A DNA stretch of 64,000 nt, taken from Blautia glucerasea. Lineage in GTDB: Bacteria > Bacillota > Clostridia > Lachnospirales > Lachnospiraceae. Below are positions 6,955-18,659 of this stretch, one piece after another (position 1 is the stretch's first letter; each line of letters starts with the position of its first letter). Position numbers and translations under genes: made by a program. The DNA lies in NCBI RefSeq assembly GCF_013304385.1, contig NZ_JAAITU010000018.1, positions 1 to 64,000 on the forward strand, written 5' to 3'. The notes beneath the pieces were generated by a model that was not told the DNA's origin, searched no databases, and saw only the letters and a list, made by a program, of their open reading frames with translations.

Positions 6955-7826
6955 CCTTTGATTCCTCCTTTCGATACACCGGACATGATCTTTTTGCGGA
7001 ATACAAGGAATAAAAGGATCAAGGGCAGGGAAATGACCACAACCGCTGCCATCATGGCAGGGATATTTTCCCGGCCAAAGCCGTTTTCGCGGATTTCCTG
7101 GATCCCGTTGGAAACAAGATAGTAATCCGGATTATCTGTGATCAGTCTGGGCCATACATAGGAATTCCAACACTCGATCACTTTCAGTACCCCAATGGTA
7201 ACCATAGTAGGCTTGCAGATGGGGATCATGACTTTGCAAAGATATTTCAGATCTGATGTACCATCCACCTTGGCTGCTCTGTACAGCTCGTCCGGAACCT
7301 GCTGGAAATTTTCTTTCAGCAGATAAATATAGAATACCGATGTGATAGAGGGCAAGATCAGTCCGGCAAAGGTATTACGCATATCCAGGTTTGTGATCGT
7401 AACAAAGTTGGTGATGATCACAAGTTCATTGGGAATCATCATCAGGGAAAGAAACAGGGTGAACATCAGGTTTTTGCCTGGAAAGGACAGTCTGGCAAAA
7501 GCAAAGGCCGCCAATGTGATCACGATCATCATGATTCCTGTGGTTACAATTGTGAAAAACAGGGTGTTTCCCAGATACCGTGCCAGTGGAACTGAGGTAA
7601 ATGCATCTTTATAGTTCTGAAGGGTAGGCGACAGAGTAAAGAAAGCGGGAATATGCTCACTGTTATAGGAATTATAATTTTTTACTGAAGTTAGAAGCAT
7701 CCAGTAAAATGGAAAAAGTACGATCAGTCCCCAGATGCTAAGCAGTGTATACAGGCATATCTGGCTGAATCTACGTCTGCGCCTGGCAGAAGCTTTGATT
7801 TTTATGTAGTCAATCTGATTTTTCAT
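6951..7826 (-). CDS. Carbohydrate ABC transporter permease (MalG-like)
   Basis: A 291-residue inner-membrane permease with six predicted membrane helices. The first follows a basic cytosolic N-terminus (KIKASARRRRR). The EAA loop that contacts the ATPase reads ELYRAAKVDGTSDLKYLCKV, close to the family pattern EAAxxDGA. The FPFYWMLLTS segment after helix 1 and the short basic C-terminus are typical of MalG/UgpE-type subunits. It begins 2 nt after the stop of the MalF-like gene, so the two are co-translated as a heterodimer. The substrate cannot be read from the sequence. Confidence 0.9.
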   Translation of the reverse strand: MKNQIDYIKIKASARRRRRFSQICLYTLLSIWGLIVLFPFYWMLLTSVKNYNSYNSEHIPAFFTLSPTLQNYKDAFTSVPLARYLGNTLFFTIVTTGIMMIVITLAAFAFARLSFPGKNLMFTLFLSLMMIPNELVIITNFVTITNLDMRNTFAGLILPSITSVFYIYLLKENFQQVPDELYRAAKVDGTSDLKYLCKVMIPICKPTMVTIGVLKVIECWNSYVWPRLITDNPDYYLVSNGIQEIRENGFGRENIPAMMAAVVVISLPLILLFLVFRKKIMSGVSKGGIKG

Positions 7827-12942: not shown

Positions 12943-12970
12943 GTGCACAGTACGGAACAATCCGTGTAAT
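12943..12970. repeat. 28-bp dispersed repeat, copy 1
   Basis: It matches 18600-18627 with two differences; the shared core is ACGGAACAATCCGTGTAAT. It contains a hairpin ACGGA-ACAA-TCCGT. It lies between degV and the promoter of the cobalamin-riboswitch transcript. Confidence 0.65.
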
Positions 12971-13023
12971 TACTTACATTTTTAAATGACCGTAAATTTA
13001 TATATAAAATTTGGTTTTATGAC

Positions 13024-13051: not shown

Positions 13052-13066
13052 ATGAGATGAATATAT

Positions 13067-13237
13067 ATGTTTTCAGTGCCTACGCAGATTAACTGTGAAG
13101 GGTAAAAGAGAATCAGGTGGAAATCCTGAGCGATCCGGTCACTGTAAGCAGGGAGCAATGCCAGTAAATCCATTGGACGACAGTCTGAGAAGGGGGCAAA
13201 GCGATGAACTGCAAGCCAGGAAACCTGCTGGAAATAT
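13067..13237 (+). promoter_or_regulatory. Cobalamin (adenosylcobalamin-class) riboswitch
   Basis: The aptamer shows the conserved blocks in order: GTGCC near the 5' end, AATCAGGTGGAAATCCTGAG, the CGGTCACTGTAA core (13136-13147), and the 3' B12-box-like GCAAGCCAGGAAACCTGC. The closing P1 helix pairs ATGTTTTCAG (13067-13076) with CTGGAAATAT (13228-13237). It is followed by a Rho-independent terminator at 13393-13424 and then by the surface-protein gene at 13566. By family knowledge, cobalamin binding should favour termination and switch the gene off when corrinoid is plentiful. Confidence 0.93.
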
Positions 13238-13297
13238 CCGATGAAAAGCTTCCGATGAAAGCACTTTCACCCAAATAATCAGATCAAAAGGTGGCAG

Positions 13298-13356
13298 GGG
13301 GATTTTTATGCGCCCTGGTACAAGTATTTTTGTATTGCAATAAATCCCCTATTGCA
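13298..13356 (+). promoter_or_regulatory. Mutually exclusive helices downstream of the aptamer
   Basis: GGGGATTT (13298-13305) can pair with AAATCCCC (13342-13349). The same right arm is the loop of a competing hairpin, TGCAAT (13336-13341) with ATTGCA (13351-13356). Such alternative pairings are typical of an expression platform, but the role in relation to the terminator at 13393 is not clear. Confidence 0.45.
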
Positions 13357-13392
13357 GCTTAAATACCACAGAGAAAGATTAAGGATTGAAGG

Positions 13393-13424
13393 AAGTCTGT
13401 TTTCAAATGAAAGCAGGCTTTTTT
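13393..13424 (+). terminator. Rho-independent terminator of the riboswitch
   Basis: AAGTCTGTTTTC (13393-13404) pairs with GAAAGCAGGCTT (13409-13420) using two G-U pairs across a 4-nt AAAT loop. A run of T follows (13419-13424). It stands between the aptamer and the coding region, as expected for transcriptional control. Confidence 0.85.
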
Positions 13425-13565
13425 GTGTGTAAGAGGAGATTACTTTGTAATGTTCCTATTTCACTAAAATTCCACGCAAAGCACAGAAACGTGTATATCC
13501 GATGTAAGCGGACTCCTGCCTCTACAAGCAGCGAGTACCTAATTTTATCAAAGGAGGAAGTAGCA

Positions 13566-16500
13566 ATGAGGAAAAAGTCAAATGCTCTTTTAGCACTTTT
13601 GCTAACAGGAGCAATGACCGTAACATCTGTATCTCCTGCATTTGCGGCAGAGGATTTTTCAGCAGATGCAGAGGTACAGGCTGTTCAGGATGTGACCGAG
13701 GAGGAATTTGACGCTGATGTTTCAGATGTGCAGGGTCAAGATGACCTGGGCGAAGTGGAGGATGTGGAAGATGTATTTACCAGTGGTGAAGAACCTTCTG
13801 ATCCGGATACCGGGGATGCGTCTTTCGGGTTGACAGATGGTAATACAGAGGAATATGTACAGGATGACCTTCTGCTGGCTGCCAGTTCTGAAGAAAAATA
13901 TCAGGACGGAACCTATACTCCAGAATCCTTTACTTTCCAAGGCGGTTCAGGAAAAGTTACGATTACCTGCCCGAAGGTGACCATTACAAGAGGAAAAGTA
14001 ACTGCAACAGTGGTTTTTTCCAGCAGCAGCTATAATAAACTGGTTGTAGATGGAGATGAGTATCTGCCGGTTTCAGGTACAGAATATACAGGATCTGTTT
14101 TTCAGGTTCCTGCAGTTCTCAACCAGGATATGGAGATCACAGGAACTACTGTGGCAATGACAGCTGCTCATGATATTACTTATACCATTCATATTAAGCT
14201 GAATGTGCCTATGGTAACGCCAGCTCCGGACAGACTGGAGGATGGTACCTATCAGGCAGCTGTAAAGGCAGATAGCGGATTTCCGGCAGAAGCCTGCACC
14301 CTGCTTGTAAAGGATGGAGAGATTGATGCAGTTGTCACACTGAAAAACGGGGATTATGACAGACTGTATGTGGGGGATGCACTGGATGCAGTCAATGAAA
14401 AGGATGATAAGCTGATCGCTTACAGACCATCGGAGGATGGTACAAAGCATATTTTCTGGCCGTTGGCTGTAGATAAGCTGGATACCTTATTCCAGGTGGC
14501 AGCCCGAAAAACAGATAAAACCTGGACAGACCATTATGTGAAGATCCTTTCTTCTTCAGTAACCAAGGTAAGCGATGAAGTTCAGGCACCGGACCAGGCT
14601 GCTGAGGCTGCAAAATTCCTTTACAGGAATTATGTGGATGATGTGATTTCAACAACAGGCGGAGTTACAAAAGATGGAAGCACCTATCATGTTGCATATT
14701 ACAATAGCTACAAGGGTGCTGTTTCTGGCATCAGCCTAAAAAGACCAAGTGCAAAAGAGTATAAGAGCGGATGGTTCTTCTCAGACTGGAGCATTTTTAA
14801 ATCTACTGTTAAACAGCAGCCAGCAAAATCCCAGACGTATTCTCTGGATACATCAAAGAGAACCCAGGAGCAGCAGGTAACTGCCACGCTGAAGCTGTAT
14901 GACCCTTCTGTGGAGGATGCAGCCATCAATGATGACAGTGCACAGCCTCTGGCTGAGTACACCTACAAGCTTGTGTTTGCAGCAAAACCGGATACCTGTC
15001 AGGTGACTTTCCGCGCAGTAAACAGTAAGACTGGTGAGGTGATTCCGGAAGCTCAGATCACAGTCACAAACAATACCACCAAGGAAGAAGTGACAGGTAC
15101 AGAAGGCATCTATCAGCTGAAATCCGGACAGAAATATACTGTTCAGGCACAAAGCGAAGGCTATATTGCAGAAGGCACAAAGGGGGATGCTGTTGCAAAG
15201 CAGACTTCCTTTACTGCTGCCTTTGATGAAACTGTTGATCTTTCCCTGACTGCAGAGGCGGACAGCAAGCATAAGGTTACCTTTAAGATCGTAGATGCAG
15301 AAGGTAAGGAAGTTCCGGAGGCAGTGCTTACAATAACAAATGAAGCTCCTGCAGAGGATGGAAGCTATACCTTATGGGATAATTGCACTTATTTTTATAG
15401 AGTAACTGCAGAAGGCTATCAGGTAGTAAGATCAAAATTCATCAAACCTTTGGAGGATCAGGAGGTTGTTGTAACTCTTACAGCACTGAAAAACTACCAG
15501 GCTTCTATTAAGATCCGGGCAAAATCCGGACATCTTGCAGTTGTGAATCCAAAGGTTCTGTCTGTTACCTATAAGAAAAACGGAGCGACATTTACTGTGG
15601 AGCCATCAGAGGACGGTACCTACCCGATGGTGGAAACTGTGGCATATACTTATACATTTGCTGCTGACAACTATCAGAGTGCAACTGCAAACTGGACGGC
15701 AACTGGAACAGAAGGCCCAGTGGAACTGGAAGGTGTGTTAAGTAAGGAAACTGCAAAAGCCCTTCTTGAGGATGCCATTGCAGCTGCAAAGGAGCTTTCT
15801 GATGAAATGACAGAAGGGGATGGTGCCGGACAGTGGGCAGCAGGAAGCAAAGAAACACTGAATGCAGCCATTCAAGCGGCAGAAGAAATATATGCAAAGG
15901 AAAATGCAGCAGACGATGATTATAAAACTGCAAAGGATGCTCTTCAGTCTGTTGTATCAGGTCTTAGCCAGAATGAAAATGCGGAGAGCATAAATATTAC
16001 AGTTTTTGTAAATAAGAATCCAGGGGAAGCACCTGTAAAAATGGCTATGAACGTAACAGCTGATGATGCTGCTAAGGTGACGCCTACCGACTCCAAAAAA
16101 AAAGACAATTACAACAAGTCAAGTGACATGGAAAAGCGTGCAACCGTGATTGACGCACTGGTAGATCTGCATAAGGAACTGTTCGGAGAGGAATATATTG
16201 CAAATCCAACCCAATATCTGATGTGCGGAAGCAGAGGCGCCGGTACAGGCTTCCTTCTTGGCCAGAAGAGCTTCATAAACTTTGTTGGATTCCGTGTAAA
16301 TGGAAAATATGTGGCAAGTGATCCAAGAATGTGCAGGCTGAAAGAAGGAGATGTGCTTTCCGTTTTTTCAGCAACAACGGTGGCAAATCCGGCATACTTG
16401 CAGTTTGAACAGCAGGAGACCACGGTAAACCAGAATGAGGAATTTACTCTTACTCTTACCGGCGATTCCTATTACATGGATGAAGATATCAACAGAACAG

Positions 16501-17711
16501 TAGGTAAGAATGAATTTACACCTGCAGAAGGGTATGATATCACACTTGCAAATGCTGAAACAGGCGAAGAAGTAACAGGTGAAGCAAAAACAGATGCACA
16601 GGGTAAGGTAAGCTTTAAGATCGGTACACCTGGTACCTATGTGGTAAAAACAGTTACAAATGAAAATGTGGAAAGCATTGTACTGCCTTATGCACAGATC
16701 CAGGTTAAGGAAAAAGCACCGGTAATTCTGGAAAATGGTACCTACCTTGTAAAGGTGATCAATAACAACAAAATGTTTAATGTGATCAATAATAGCTGTG
16801 TCCTTAAAGTGGAAAACAGAAAGATGACAGCAGAGATTTCTCTTCACGGAAAAGGCTATGATTACATGTATGCAGGAATAAAAGAGGAGGCAGCGGCAGC
16901 TGGTGAGGCTGCATGGTCCCACTATTATGAAAAAGAAATTGCAGTGAATAACGGAGATAAGGTTGAAATGGGACCATGGTATACCTATTCTCTGGCTGTT
17001 TCAGCACTGGATCAGGAAATTGCTTTTTCTGTTCGTAATATCAGGGATGGTGTCTGGTTTGACCGTAGACTTACTTTCCTTACAGAAGGTATCCAGAAAA
17101 TCAATACCCCACAGCCTACCCCAACTGTAACACCGACTCCAACGGTAGAGCCTACTGCTGCGCCACAGCCTACTGCAGTACCGCAGCCAACAGAGGCACC
17201 AAAGTCTGTAACTGTAGCGGCCAAGAAACTGACGGTCAATACATCCACCATGTATCTGAAAGTCAAGAAATCAGATACCATTGGCGTGATCGTTGCACCA
17301 TCCAATACAACGGATAAGGTAACATATAAGTCCTCCAAAAAATCTGTTGCAACTGTTGATAAAAACGGAAAAGTAACCGCTAAAAAAGCAGGAAAAGCTG
17401 TGATCACAGTAAAAGCAGGAAAGCTTACCAAGAAGGTTACGGTTGTTGTTGGAAAATATGCAAAGAAAGTTACAAAGCTGAAATTTGCAAAGAAATCAAT
17501 GACTTTGAAAAAGGGCAGTATGCAGTTCCTGAAGGTAACTGTGAAACCAAAGAAAGCCACTACAAATCTGAAATGGAAGTCTTCTAATACCAAGGTTGTT
17601 ACTGTTGATAAGAATGGAAAAGTCACTGCTAAAAAAGCAGGAACTGCCTGGATCACAGTCCGTGGCGATGGGAAGAAAGCATCTATTAAGATTAAAGTAA
17701 AATCAAAATAA
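13566..17711 (+). CDS. Giant cobalamin-riboswitch-controlled surface protein with transcobalamin-like domain
   Basis: A 1381-residue secreted protein. Signal peptide 1-27 (ends PAFA); acidic linker to about 110. Beta-rich units opening with (D/N)GTY lie at about 113-212, 225-332 and 1056-1172; they recall NEAT-like ligand-binding modules, not proven. Carboxypeptidase-regulatory/PEGA-like units occupy about 477-722 and a FIVAR-like helical bundle 729-800. A DUF4430 (transcobalamin-like C-terminal) domain spans 808-935, with TVFVNKNPG, RATVIDALVDLHKELFGEEY, VGFRVNGKY and LKEGDVLSVF. An Ig-like unit covers 945-1048, a Pro/Thr linker 1180-1212, and two Lys-rich Big_2 repeats 1215-1381. No LPXTG or final membrane helix. 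The frame is open to 13386, but that stretch holds the riboswitch terminator; the ATG at 13566 has AAAGGAGG and begins the signal peptide. Confidence 0.85.
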   Translation: MRKKSNALLALLLTGAMTVTSVSPAFAAEDFSADAEVQAVQDVTEEEFDADVSDVQGQDDLGEVEDVEDVFTSGEEPSDPDTGDASFGLTDGNTEEYVQDDLLLAASSEEKYQDGTYTPESFTFQGGSGKVTITCPKVTITRGKVTATVVFSSSSYNKLVVDGDEYLPVSGTEYTGSVFQVPAVLNQDMEITGTTVAMTAAHDITYTIHIKLNVPMVTPAPDRLEDGTYQAAVKADSGFPAEACTLLVKDGEIDAVVTLKNGDYDRLYVGDALDAVNEKDDKLIAYRPSEDGTKHIFWPLAVDKLDTLFQVAARKTDKTWTDHYVKILSSSVTKVSDEVQAPDQAAEAAKFLYRNYVDDVISTTGGVTKDGSTYHVAYYNSYKGAVSGISLKRPSAKEYKSGWFFSDWSIFKSTVKQQPAKSQTYSLDTSKRTQEQQVTATLKLYDPSVEDAAINDDSAQPLAEYTYKLVFAAKPDTCQVTFRAVNSKTGEVIPEAQITVTNNTTKEEVTGTEGIYQLKSGQKYTVQAQSEGYIAEGTKGDAVAKQTSFTAAFDETVDLSLTAEADSKHKVTFKIVDAEGKEVPEAVLTITNEAPAEDGSYTLWDNCTYFYRVTAEGYQVVRSKFIKPLEDQEVVVTLTALKNYQASIKIRAKSGHLAVVNPKVLSVTYKKNGATFTVEPSEDGTYPMVETVAYTYTFAADNYQSATANWTATGTEGPVELEGVLSKETAKALLEDAIAAAKELSDEMTEGDGAGQWAAGSKETLNAAIQAAEEIYAKENAADDDYKTAKDALQSVVSGLSQNENAESINITVFVNKNPGEAPVKMAMNVTADDAAKVTPTDSKKKDNYNKSSDMEKRATVIDALVDLHKELFGEEYIANPTQYLMCGSRGAGTGFLLGQKSFINFVGFRVNGKYVASDPRMCRLKEGDVLSVFSATTVANPAYLQFEQQETTVNQNEEFTLTLTGDSYYMDEDINRTVGKNEFTPAEGYDITLANAETGEEVTGEAKTDAQGKVSFKIGTPGTYVVKTVTNENVESIVLPYAQIQVKEKAPVILENGTYLVKVINNNKMFNVINNSCVLKVENRKMTAEISLHGKGYDYMYAGIKEEAAAAGEAAWSHYYEKEIAVNNGDKVEMGPWYTYSLAVSALDQEIAFSVRNIRDGVWFDRRLTFLTEGIQKINTPQPTPTVTPTPTVEPTAAPQPTAVPQPTEAPKSVTVAAKKLTVNTSTMYLKVKKSDTIGVIVAPSNTTDKVTYKSSKKSVATVDKNGKVTAKKAGKAVITVKAGKLTKKVTVVVGKYAKKVTKLKFAKKSMTLKKGSMQFLKVTVKPKKATTNLKWKSSNTKVVTVDKNGKVTAKKAGTAWITVRGDGKKASIKIKVKSK

Positions 17712-17753: not shown

Positions 17754-17793
17754 CCCCTGGAGCCTGATATATCCTATCAGCTCCAGGGATTTT
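17754..17793. terminator. Bidirectional terminator between surface protein and mntP
   Basis: CCCTGGAGC-CTGATA pairs with TATCAG-CTCCAGGG around 17755-17788 with one bulged base, flanked by AAAA before and TTTTT after. It serves both converging genes. Confidence 0.85.
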
Positions 17794-18411: not shown

Positions 18412-18461
18412 TTTACCCATAAAAAATCCCATATACAGTGCAAAAGTTGTATATGGGTAAA
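18412..18461. promoter_or_regulatory. Alternative-pairing hairpin upstream of mntP
   Basis: The segment TGTATATGGGTAAA (18448-18461) can pair either with CCCATATACA (18428-18437, 10 bp, 10-nt loop) or with TTTACCCATA (18412-18421, 10 bp). It lies 29-78 nt upstream of the mntP start. It could be an operator for a DtxR/MntR-type regulator or an RNA switch. It does not show the conserved yybP-ykoY core. Confidence 0.5.
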
Positions 18462-18599
18462 ATAACACTCCCTCACAGGAATTAATTGTATCCATACAAT
18501 AGCAAAAAAGAAGAGCGCTGTCAATTATTTTTATCAATAAGGAATATAAAAGCGGGGTGTTAATCCCGCAATATGCGAATAAAGGGAAGGATTGTGGGA

Positions 18600-18627
18600 G
18601 TGCAAAGCACGGAACAATCCGTGTAAT
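18600..18627. repeat. 28-bp dispersed repeat, copy 2
   Basis: It differs from 12943-12970 at two positions and contains the perfect hairpin CACGGA-ACAA-TCCGTG. Both copies lie upstream of genes for cofactor or metal acquisition. Confidence 0.65.
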
Positions 18628-18659
18628 CATGATTTTGGCAAAAGAAGAAATGGATGTAG

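Follow-up and report, generated by a model that had tools for sequence, protein, structure and literature searches.

The 64,000-nucleotide stretch of Blautia glucerasea DNA considered here (contig NZ_JAAITU010000018.1, positions 1 to 64,000; hereafter the window) carries a cobalamin riboswitch followed by a single gene for a giant surface protein, here called Q, all of whose features lie on the forward strand. The riboswitch aptamer, RF00174, is full-length and occupies 13057..13246, where the covariance model scores 98.4 bits against a gathering cut-off of 31.5 (E 2.3e-23); the same RNA also stands 5' of both orthologues of Q, in the stretches L094 and L095. Downstream of the aptamer lies a terminator-like hairpin of 16 bp and -18.4 kcal/mol (13389..13424), the presumed expression platform, which was equalled by none of 200 shuffled sequences (z -4.97) and which, by eye, is kept in the aligned leaders of the two orthologues; a consensus scan of the aligned leaders did not list it, probably because the T-run was counted as stem. 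A ribosome-binding site, AAAGGAGGAA, was read directly at 13550..13559, and the gene itself runs from an ATG at 13566 to 17711, encoding 1381 amino acids of secreted type with an N-terminal Sec-type signal recognized by eye. A hairpin with a T-run, taken from direct reading only, lies 3' of the stop codon (17755..17788), and the gene looks monocistronic. The aptamer, the terminator and the single gene for a secreted protein had all been proposed in an initial annotation made from the letters of the window, and each was borne out.

That annotation had also counted three units of (D/N)GTY type, and these were found to begin at residues 114, 226 and 1057. They correspond to domain A (residues 111-213, with M198, H202 and Y206; 13896..14204), domain B1 (residues 221-340; 14226..14585; profile A6, E 6.7e-8, and alignment) and domain B2 (residues 1051-1178; 16716..17099; profile A6, E 2.2e-8). 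It is well supported that the three units are remote relatives of NEAT domains, the domains of heme hemophores, the link being made through the profile of an intermediate family, termed B-A, which includes the domains of Q. Among its members 49 of 52 match PF05031 at E<=0.1, with L108 at 38.3 bits, over the cut-off of 32.8, and L082 at 36.3 bits; the fold agrees with that of NEAT domains, and no NEAT came up when the PDB was searched by sequence, either from the B-A profile or from a single A-only protein. The heme-ligand motif of NEAT domains is YxxxY. This motif is altered in the proteins under study: domain A reads HxxxY in Q and in 50 of 52 relatives, domain B reads YxxxV in nearly all relatives, and B1 and B2 of Q have Thr or Phe in place of the first Tyr.

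The remainder of Q is built largely of beta domains. CarboxypepD_reg-like units fill residues ~480-720 (15003..15725; PF13620, E 1.8e-10, in three stretches, the best being 485-538) and are followed by a spacer resembling a solved hyaluronoglucosaminidase segment (residues 734-800; 15765..15965; 2jnk_A, E 9.5e-6), a DUF4430-like domain (residues 806-939; 15981..16382), an Ig/SdrD_B-like domain with weak Pfam matches under the cut-off (residues 951-1048; 16416..16709) and, beyond B2, the two Lys-rich Big_2 domains which had been foreseen (residues 1217-1381; 17214..17708; PF02368, 60.8 bits, E 1.2e-16, in two stretches). No LPxTG sortase signal is present, as previously stated, the C-terminus reading KIKVKSK.

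The DUF4430-like domain had been annotated as a member of that family corresponding to the C-terminal domain of transcobalamin, and only part of this claim stood. PF14478 finds no match in the whole of Q at E<=1 (Pfam cut-off 23.8 bits) or in residues 795-965 at E<=10, and a search of the genome at E<=10 returned four other DUF4430 domains, none of them at Q; the lack of a match was among the outcomes which the annotation had itself set against its reading. The structure comparison was more favourable: the top Foldseek matches for the predicted fold of residues 806-939 are transcobalamin and haptocorrin beta domains, and profile-profile comparison relates residues ~806-939 to DUF4430 at a probability of 74-82%. 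This segment may thus be regarded as a remote relative of DUF4430 with a predicted fold like that of the transcobalamin beta domain, which in the title of entry 5np4 binds cyanocobalamin. The likeness to the beta domain of transcobalamin, haptocorrin and intrinsic factor (DUF4430, PF14478) lies at the level of the predicted fold.

Several DUF4430 genes were seen in other settings. In L016 (4580-5164, +) a DUF4430 lipoprotein-like gene adjoins thiamine-synthesis-like genes, named by eye, so that the family may have ties beyond B12; conversely, a wider link between the two is supported by L294 and L302, from other families of the order, in which true DUF4430 genes have a strong cobalamin riboswitch match nearby. 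L012 and L017 hold two copies of a cluster of MoxR, DUF58, transglutaminase-like, DUF4430 and giant surface protein genes (names by eye; DUF4430 by profile). In L012 the cluster stands after an energy-coupling factor (ECF)-type operon that has a weak riboswitch match, and the stretch of L017 ends in a match which is both weak and partial (28.5 bits). In L011 a cobalamin riboswitch of 88.5 bits (7421-7625, -) is directed at a leucine-rich-repeat protein gene and stands between cbiMQO-like genes, again by eye, and a DUF4430-bearing giant.

Six RF00174 matches were found in the B. glucerasea genome, on contigs C97, C21, C32, C85, C142 and C98, that on C85 being Q's own. On C32 the riboswitch leads two NEAT-containing surface proteins, a Peripla_BP_2 binding protein which is the only PF01497 match of the genome, a FecCD permease whose best NCBIfam match is BtuC, and an ATP-binding cassette (ABC) ATPase; domain B2 of Q shares 37% identity (E 3.9e-17) with a 921-codon protein of this operon. 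The C21 riboswitch leads a secreted-type CbiK, the sole CbiK match of the genome, and a NEAT-B protein. The remaining three comprise one on C97 at the head of an operon of microcompartment type, its genes named by eye, one on C142 facing a leucine-rich-repeat protein gene, and one on C98, a weak match of 32 bits near an ECF-type operon recognized by eye. Profile A6 matches the genome at only four places, namely C21, C32, Q itself and C157, the last a NEAT-like paralogue whose gene is cut by the contig edge. The C32 BtuC/BtuD-like operon is the likely partner importer for Q; a sequence search of the PDB with its binding protein gave no match at E<=0.001.

This arrangement recurs widely in relatives, and one scan confirmed at least 475 relatives of the NEAT-based, riboswitch-linked system. 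The best 80 of a longer list of B-A family loci, whose titles are mostly of Lachnospiraceae or its genera and in a few cases otherwise, were compared using riboswitch alignment A4, and a riboswitch stands upstream of the NEAT gene on the same strand in 76 of the 80, at a median distance of 1.76 kb and a smallest of 1.48 kb. In the four loci without one (L123, L137, L150 and L163) the available upstream sequence is shorter than 1.3 kb, under the smallest distance seen, and the Rfam model agreed for all seven of the riboswitch loci checked. Counting any position in the fetched stretches, a substrate-binding protein was found in 78 loci, CbiK and BtuC in 70 each and an ABC ATPase in 68; the order CbiK-NEAT-SBP (substrate-binding protein)-BtuC-BtuD holds in 58, with five more the same save for an adjacent CbiK call. 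Fusions of NEAT to the binding protein and of CbiK to NEAT occur in seven loci each. The 80 loci are not independent of one another, since NEAT was the means of finding them, they are the best-scoring of a larger set and they are mutually related.

A comparison across 98 genomes separates the domains of Q from one another. Of 62 domain-A matches, by hand count, outside the genome of Q and its orthologues, 60 made up the NEAT-type sample, and 38 of these loci have an upstream riboswitch, compared with one of 40 Big_2 or DUF4430-like control loci, an author-picked subset of such matches (p 6.7e-11); upstream stretches of up to 7 kb were taken, shortened by contig ends in both sets and counted as they stood, and in the sole positive control the riboswitch is 6.6 kb away. 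The riboswitch link of the NEAT-type system is firm, and it is the NEAT-like domains, unlike the DUF4430-like module, which tie Q to the B12 regulon. Among the A-only genes, those of L092, L097 and L114 are small, NEAT-like and divergent beside a CbiL-like gene (cobalt-precorrin-2 methyltransferase, by eye) and an ABC ATPase, those of L092 and L097 having no upstream riboswitch; the A-only gene of L098 adjoins an ABC ATPase.

We favour, with a probability of about 0.58, the reading that Q is a B12-repressed surface protein which captures corrinoids and feeds the C32 importer, an Isd-like heme relay retargeted to B12, a corrinoid being the likely ligand. Corrinoid capture at the surface under B12 shortage is what the initial annotation had proposed, and it had not named the NEAT-like domains. 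Riboswitches of the cobalamin class are described in PMC11477304 as OFF switches, and when adenosylcobalamin is scarce the riboswitch of Q would let transcription read through the terminator. The three NEAT-like beta-sandwiches and the transcobalamin-beta-like domain would be the likely corrinoid-binding modules, whilst the Ig, CarboxypepD and Lys-rich Big_2 units may form a stalk and make contact with the wall. Captured corrinoid would then pass to the co-regulated NEAT proteins, to the Peripla_BP_2 binding protein and finally to the BtuC/BtuD-like C32 importer.

A number of observations weigh against this reading. PF05031 matches neither the isolated fragments A, B1 and B2 of Q at E<=10 nor anything in the genome of Q at E<=1, and 2 of 52 relatives have Tyr, like classical NEATs, for the axial-position His of domain A; because of these two points our reading is slightly weakened and a heme-based one slightly strengthened. 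There is no riboswitch in the upstream stretch taken, of up to 7 kb, in 22 of the 60 NEAT-type loci, some of which are on short contigs while others are A-only genes. Domain B2, present in the orthologue of 85% identity, is missing from that of 61%, and no alignable B2 occurs in P0002-P0004, relatives represented here by sequences that lack flanking DNA. The C32 permease falls under the BtuC cut-off (212.7 vs 334), and the only NCBIfam match of the C32 binding protein, a weak one of 20.6 bits, is the heme-binding protein IsdE. To the missing DUF4430 match in residues 795-965 may be added a mean pLDDT (predicted local distance difference test score) of 76 for the model of this domain, for which transcobalamin beats MoaD-like and other beta-grasp folds narrowly, and the presence of the module in surface giants without a riboswitch (none of four loci with RF00174 in upstream stretches of up to 7 kb, one of these being shortened by a contig end). 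Lastly, all solved NEAT matches come from heme or hemoglobin acquisition proteins, and among solved structures it is the heme-binding FetB that most resembles the linked CbiK.

The last of these points bear on the possibility that the whole NEAT/CbiK/BtuFCD-like system, Q included, handles heme or another porphyrin, its B12 control reflecting the supply of metal or tetrapyrrole for corrinoid synthesis. FetB is said to exchange porphyrin metals in Porphyromonas gingivalis (PMC13402209) and another CbiK homologue, IhtB, is thought to strip iron from heme (PMC10913741), which together with the weak IsdE match and the YxxxY motif retained in two relatives speaks for this proposal. We nevertheless consider it rather unlikely given the cobalamin riboswitch at nearly all of the 80 loci, the remaining four being short of upstream sequence, a permease closest to BtuC, the altered motifs in both domain types and the additional transcobalamin-like domain of Q.

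The CbiK proteins themselves raise a further possibility, that Q captures corrinoid precursors, with or without cobalt, and that these, before they are imported, have their cobalt inserted or swapped extracellularly by the secreted CbiK under the same control. In the sister operons (L079-L098 and L099-L178) a CbiK precedes most NEAT genes, and among the CbiK N-termini inspected most are, by eye, of Sec or lipoprotein type. Six His columns, some of them within the GHG and GDHA motifs common to Salmonella CbiK, are invariant in all 58 aligned CbiK, and chelation in this enzyme class is described as being mediated by a pair of histidines (PMC7689651). Extracellular cobalt loading by the CbiK of the sister operons is thus only possible, because these proteins keep the histidines yet have as nearest solved relative the heme-binding FetB. 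As neither the window nor the C32 operon holds a CbiK, precursor capture by Q itself seems quite improbable, despite the secreted-type CbiK at C21 and its fusions to NEAT elsewhere. There is likewise little to recommend Q as an adhesin or wall protein incidentally under B12 control, with NEAT-like folds of structural use, for although it has many Ig-like, Big_2 and CarboxypepD units and related giants exist with no upstream riboswitch, the riboswitch tracks the NEAT-type domains and not the Big_2 or DUF4430-like genes, and NEAT is fused to binding proteins.

The closest known system is the Isd heme relay of NEAT proteins (IsdA/B/H, IsdX1/X2, Hal) with IsdDEF; NEAT proteins are described (PMC13402209) as relaying heme to an ABC importer through the wall of Gram-positive bacteria. 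The system of Q differs in its cobalamin riboswitch leader, linked CbiK and added transcobalamin-like domain, and in Q the sortase signal is lacking, the heme-motif residues are altered and the genome is without a Pfam NEAT match. BtuG, BtuH, BtuJ and BtuK of Bacteroides are described as surface B12-binding lipoproteins in riboswitch-regulated loci (PMC6143338, PMC8941943, PMC12751083), BtuJ as a beta-jelly-roll (DUF4465); Q would share with them surface B12 binding and riboswitch control, and differs in being a Gram-positive giant and not an outer-membrane lipoprotein. Predicted btuH homologues in three Firmicutes are also noted in PMC8941943, and one of these lies near an ECF-like cobamide transporter. 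The CbiK of the sister operons resembles the extracytoplasmic FetB/IhtB type, with the difference that a cobalamin riboswitch precedes it and that NEAT is its neighbour or its fusion partner. We assign the system to none of Pfam NEAT, DUF4430, Isd and BtuG/H/J, and see in it probable NEAT-like capture under B12 control. A check of the PMC library, made mostly on the titles listed and with most subscription journals and bioRxiv outside its scope, came upon no publication on such a system.

In keeping with the initial annotation, no B12 transporter or B12 enzyme was found among the neighbours of Q scanned (DegV, MntP, FeoA/B and MMPL), two of which are metal transporters, for manganese efflux (MntP) and iron (FeoA/B). 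Near full-length matches to Q among the 98 genomes, the window apart, are only those of L094 and L095 (85% and 61% identity), and in L094 open reading frames starting like DegV and FeoB, by eye, likewise flank the orthologue. A Clostridiales-1 RNA (RF01699, 53.5 bits) lies at 18448-18629 (+) of the window between the MntP and FeoB genes, and a short stretch just 5' of the riboswitch (12943-12973) resembles by eye its 3' end and is perhaps a remnant.

Taken more broadly, and as a tentative proposal that we rate below an even chance, the Lachnospiraceae may possess an Isd-like wall relay for cobamides or their precursors, in which NEAT-like and transcobalamin-like domains would make the catch, secreted CbiK would load or exchange cobalt outside the cell and a BtuFCD-like importer would complete the uptake, all under cobalamin riboswitches and with Q as a giant, long-reach member. 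If this is true, NEAT domains would have been put to work beyond heme and iron.
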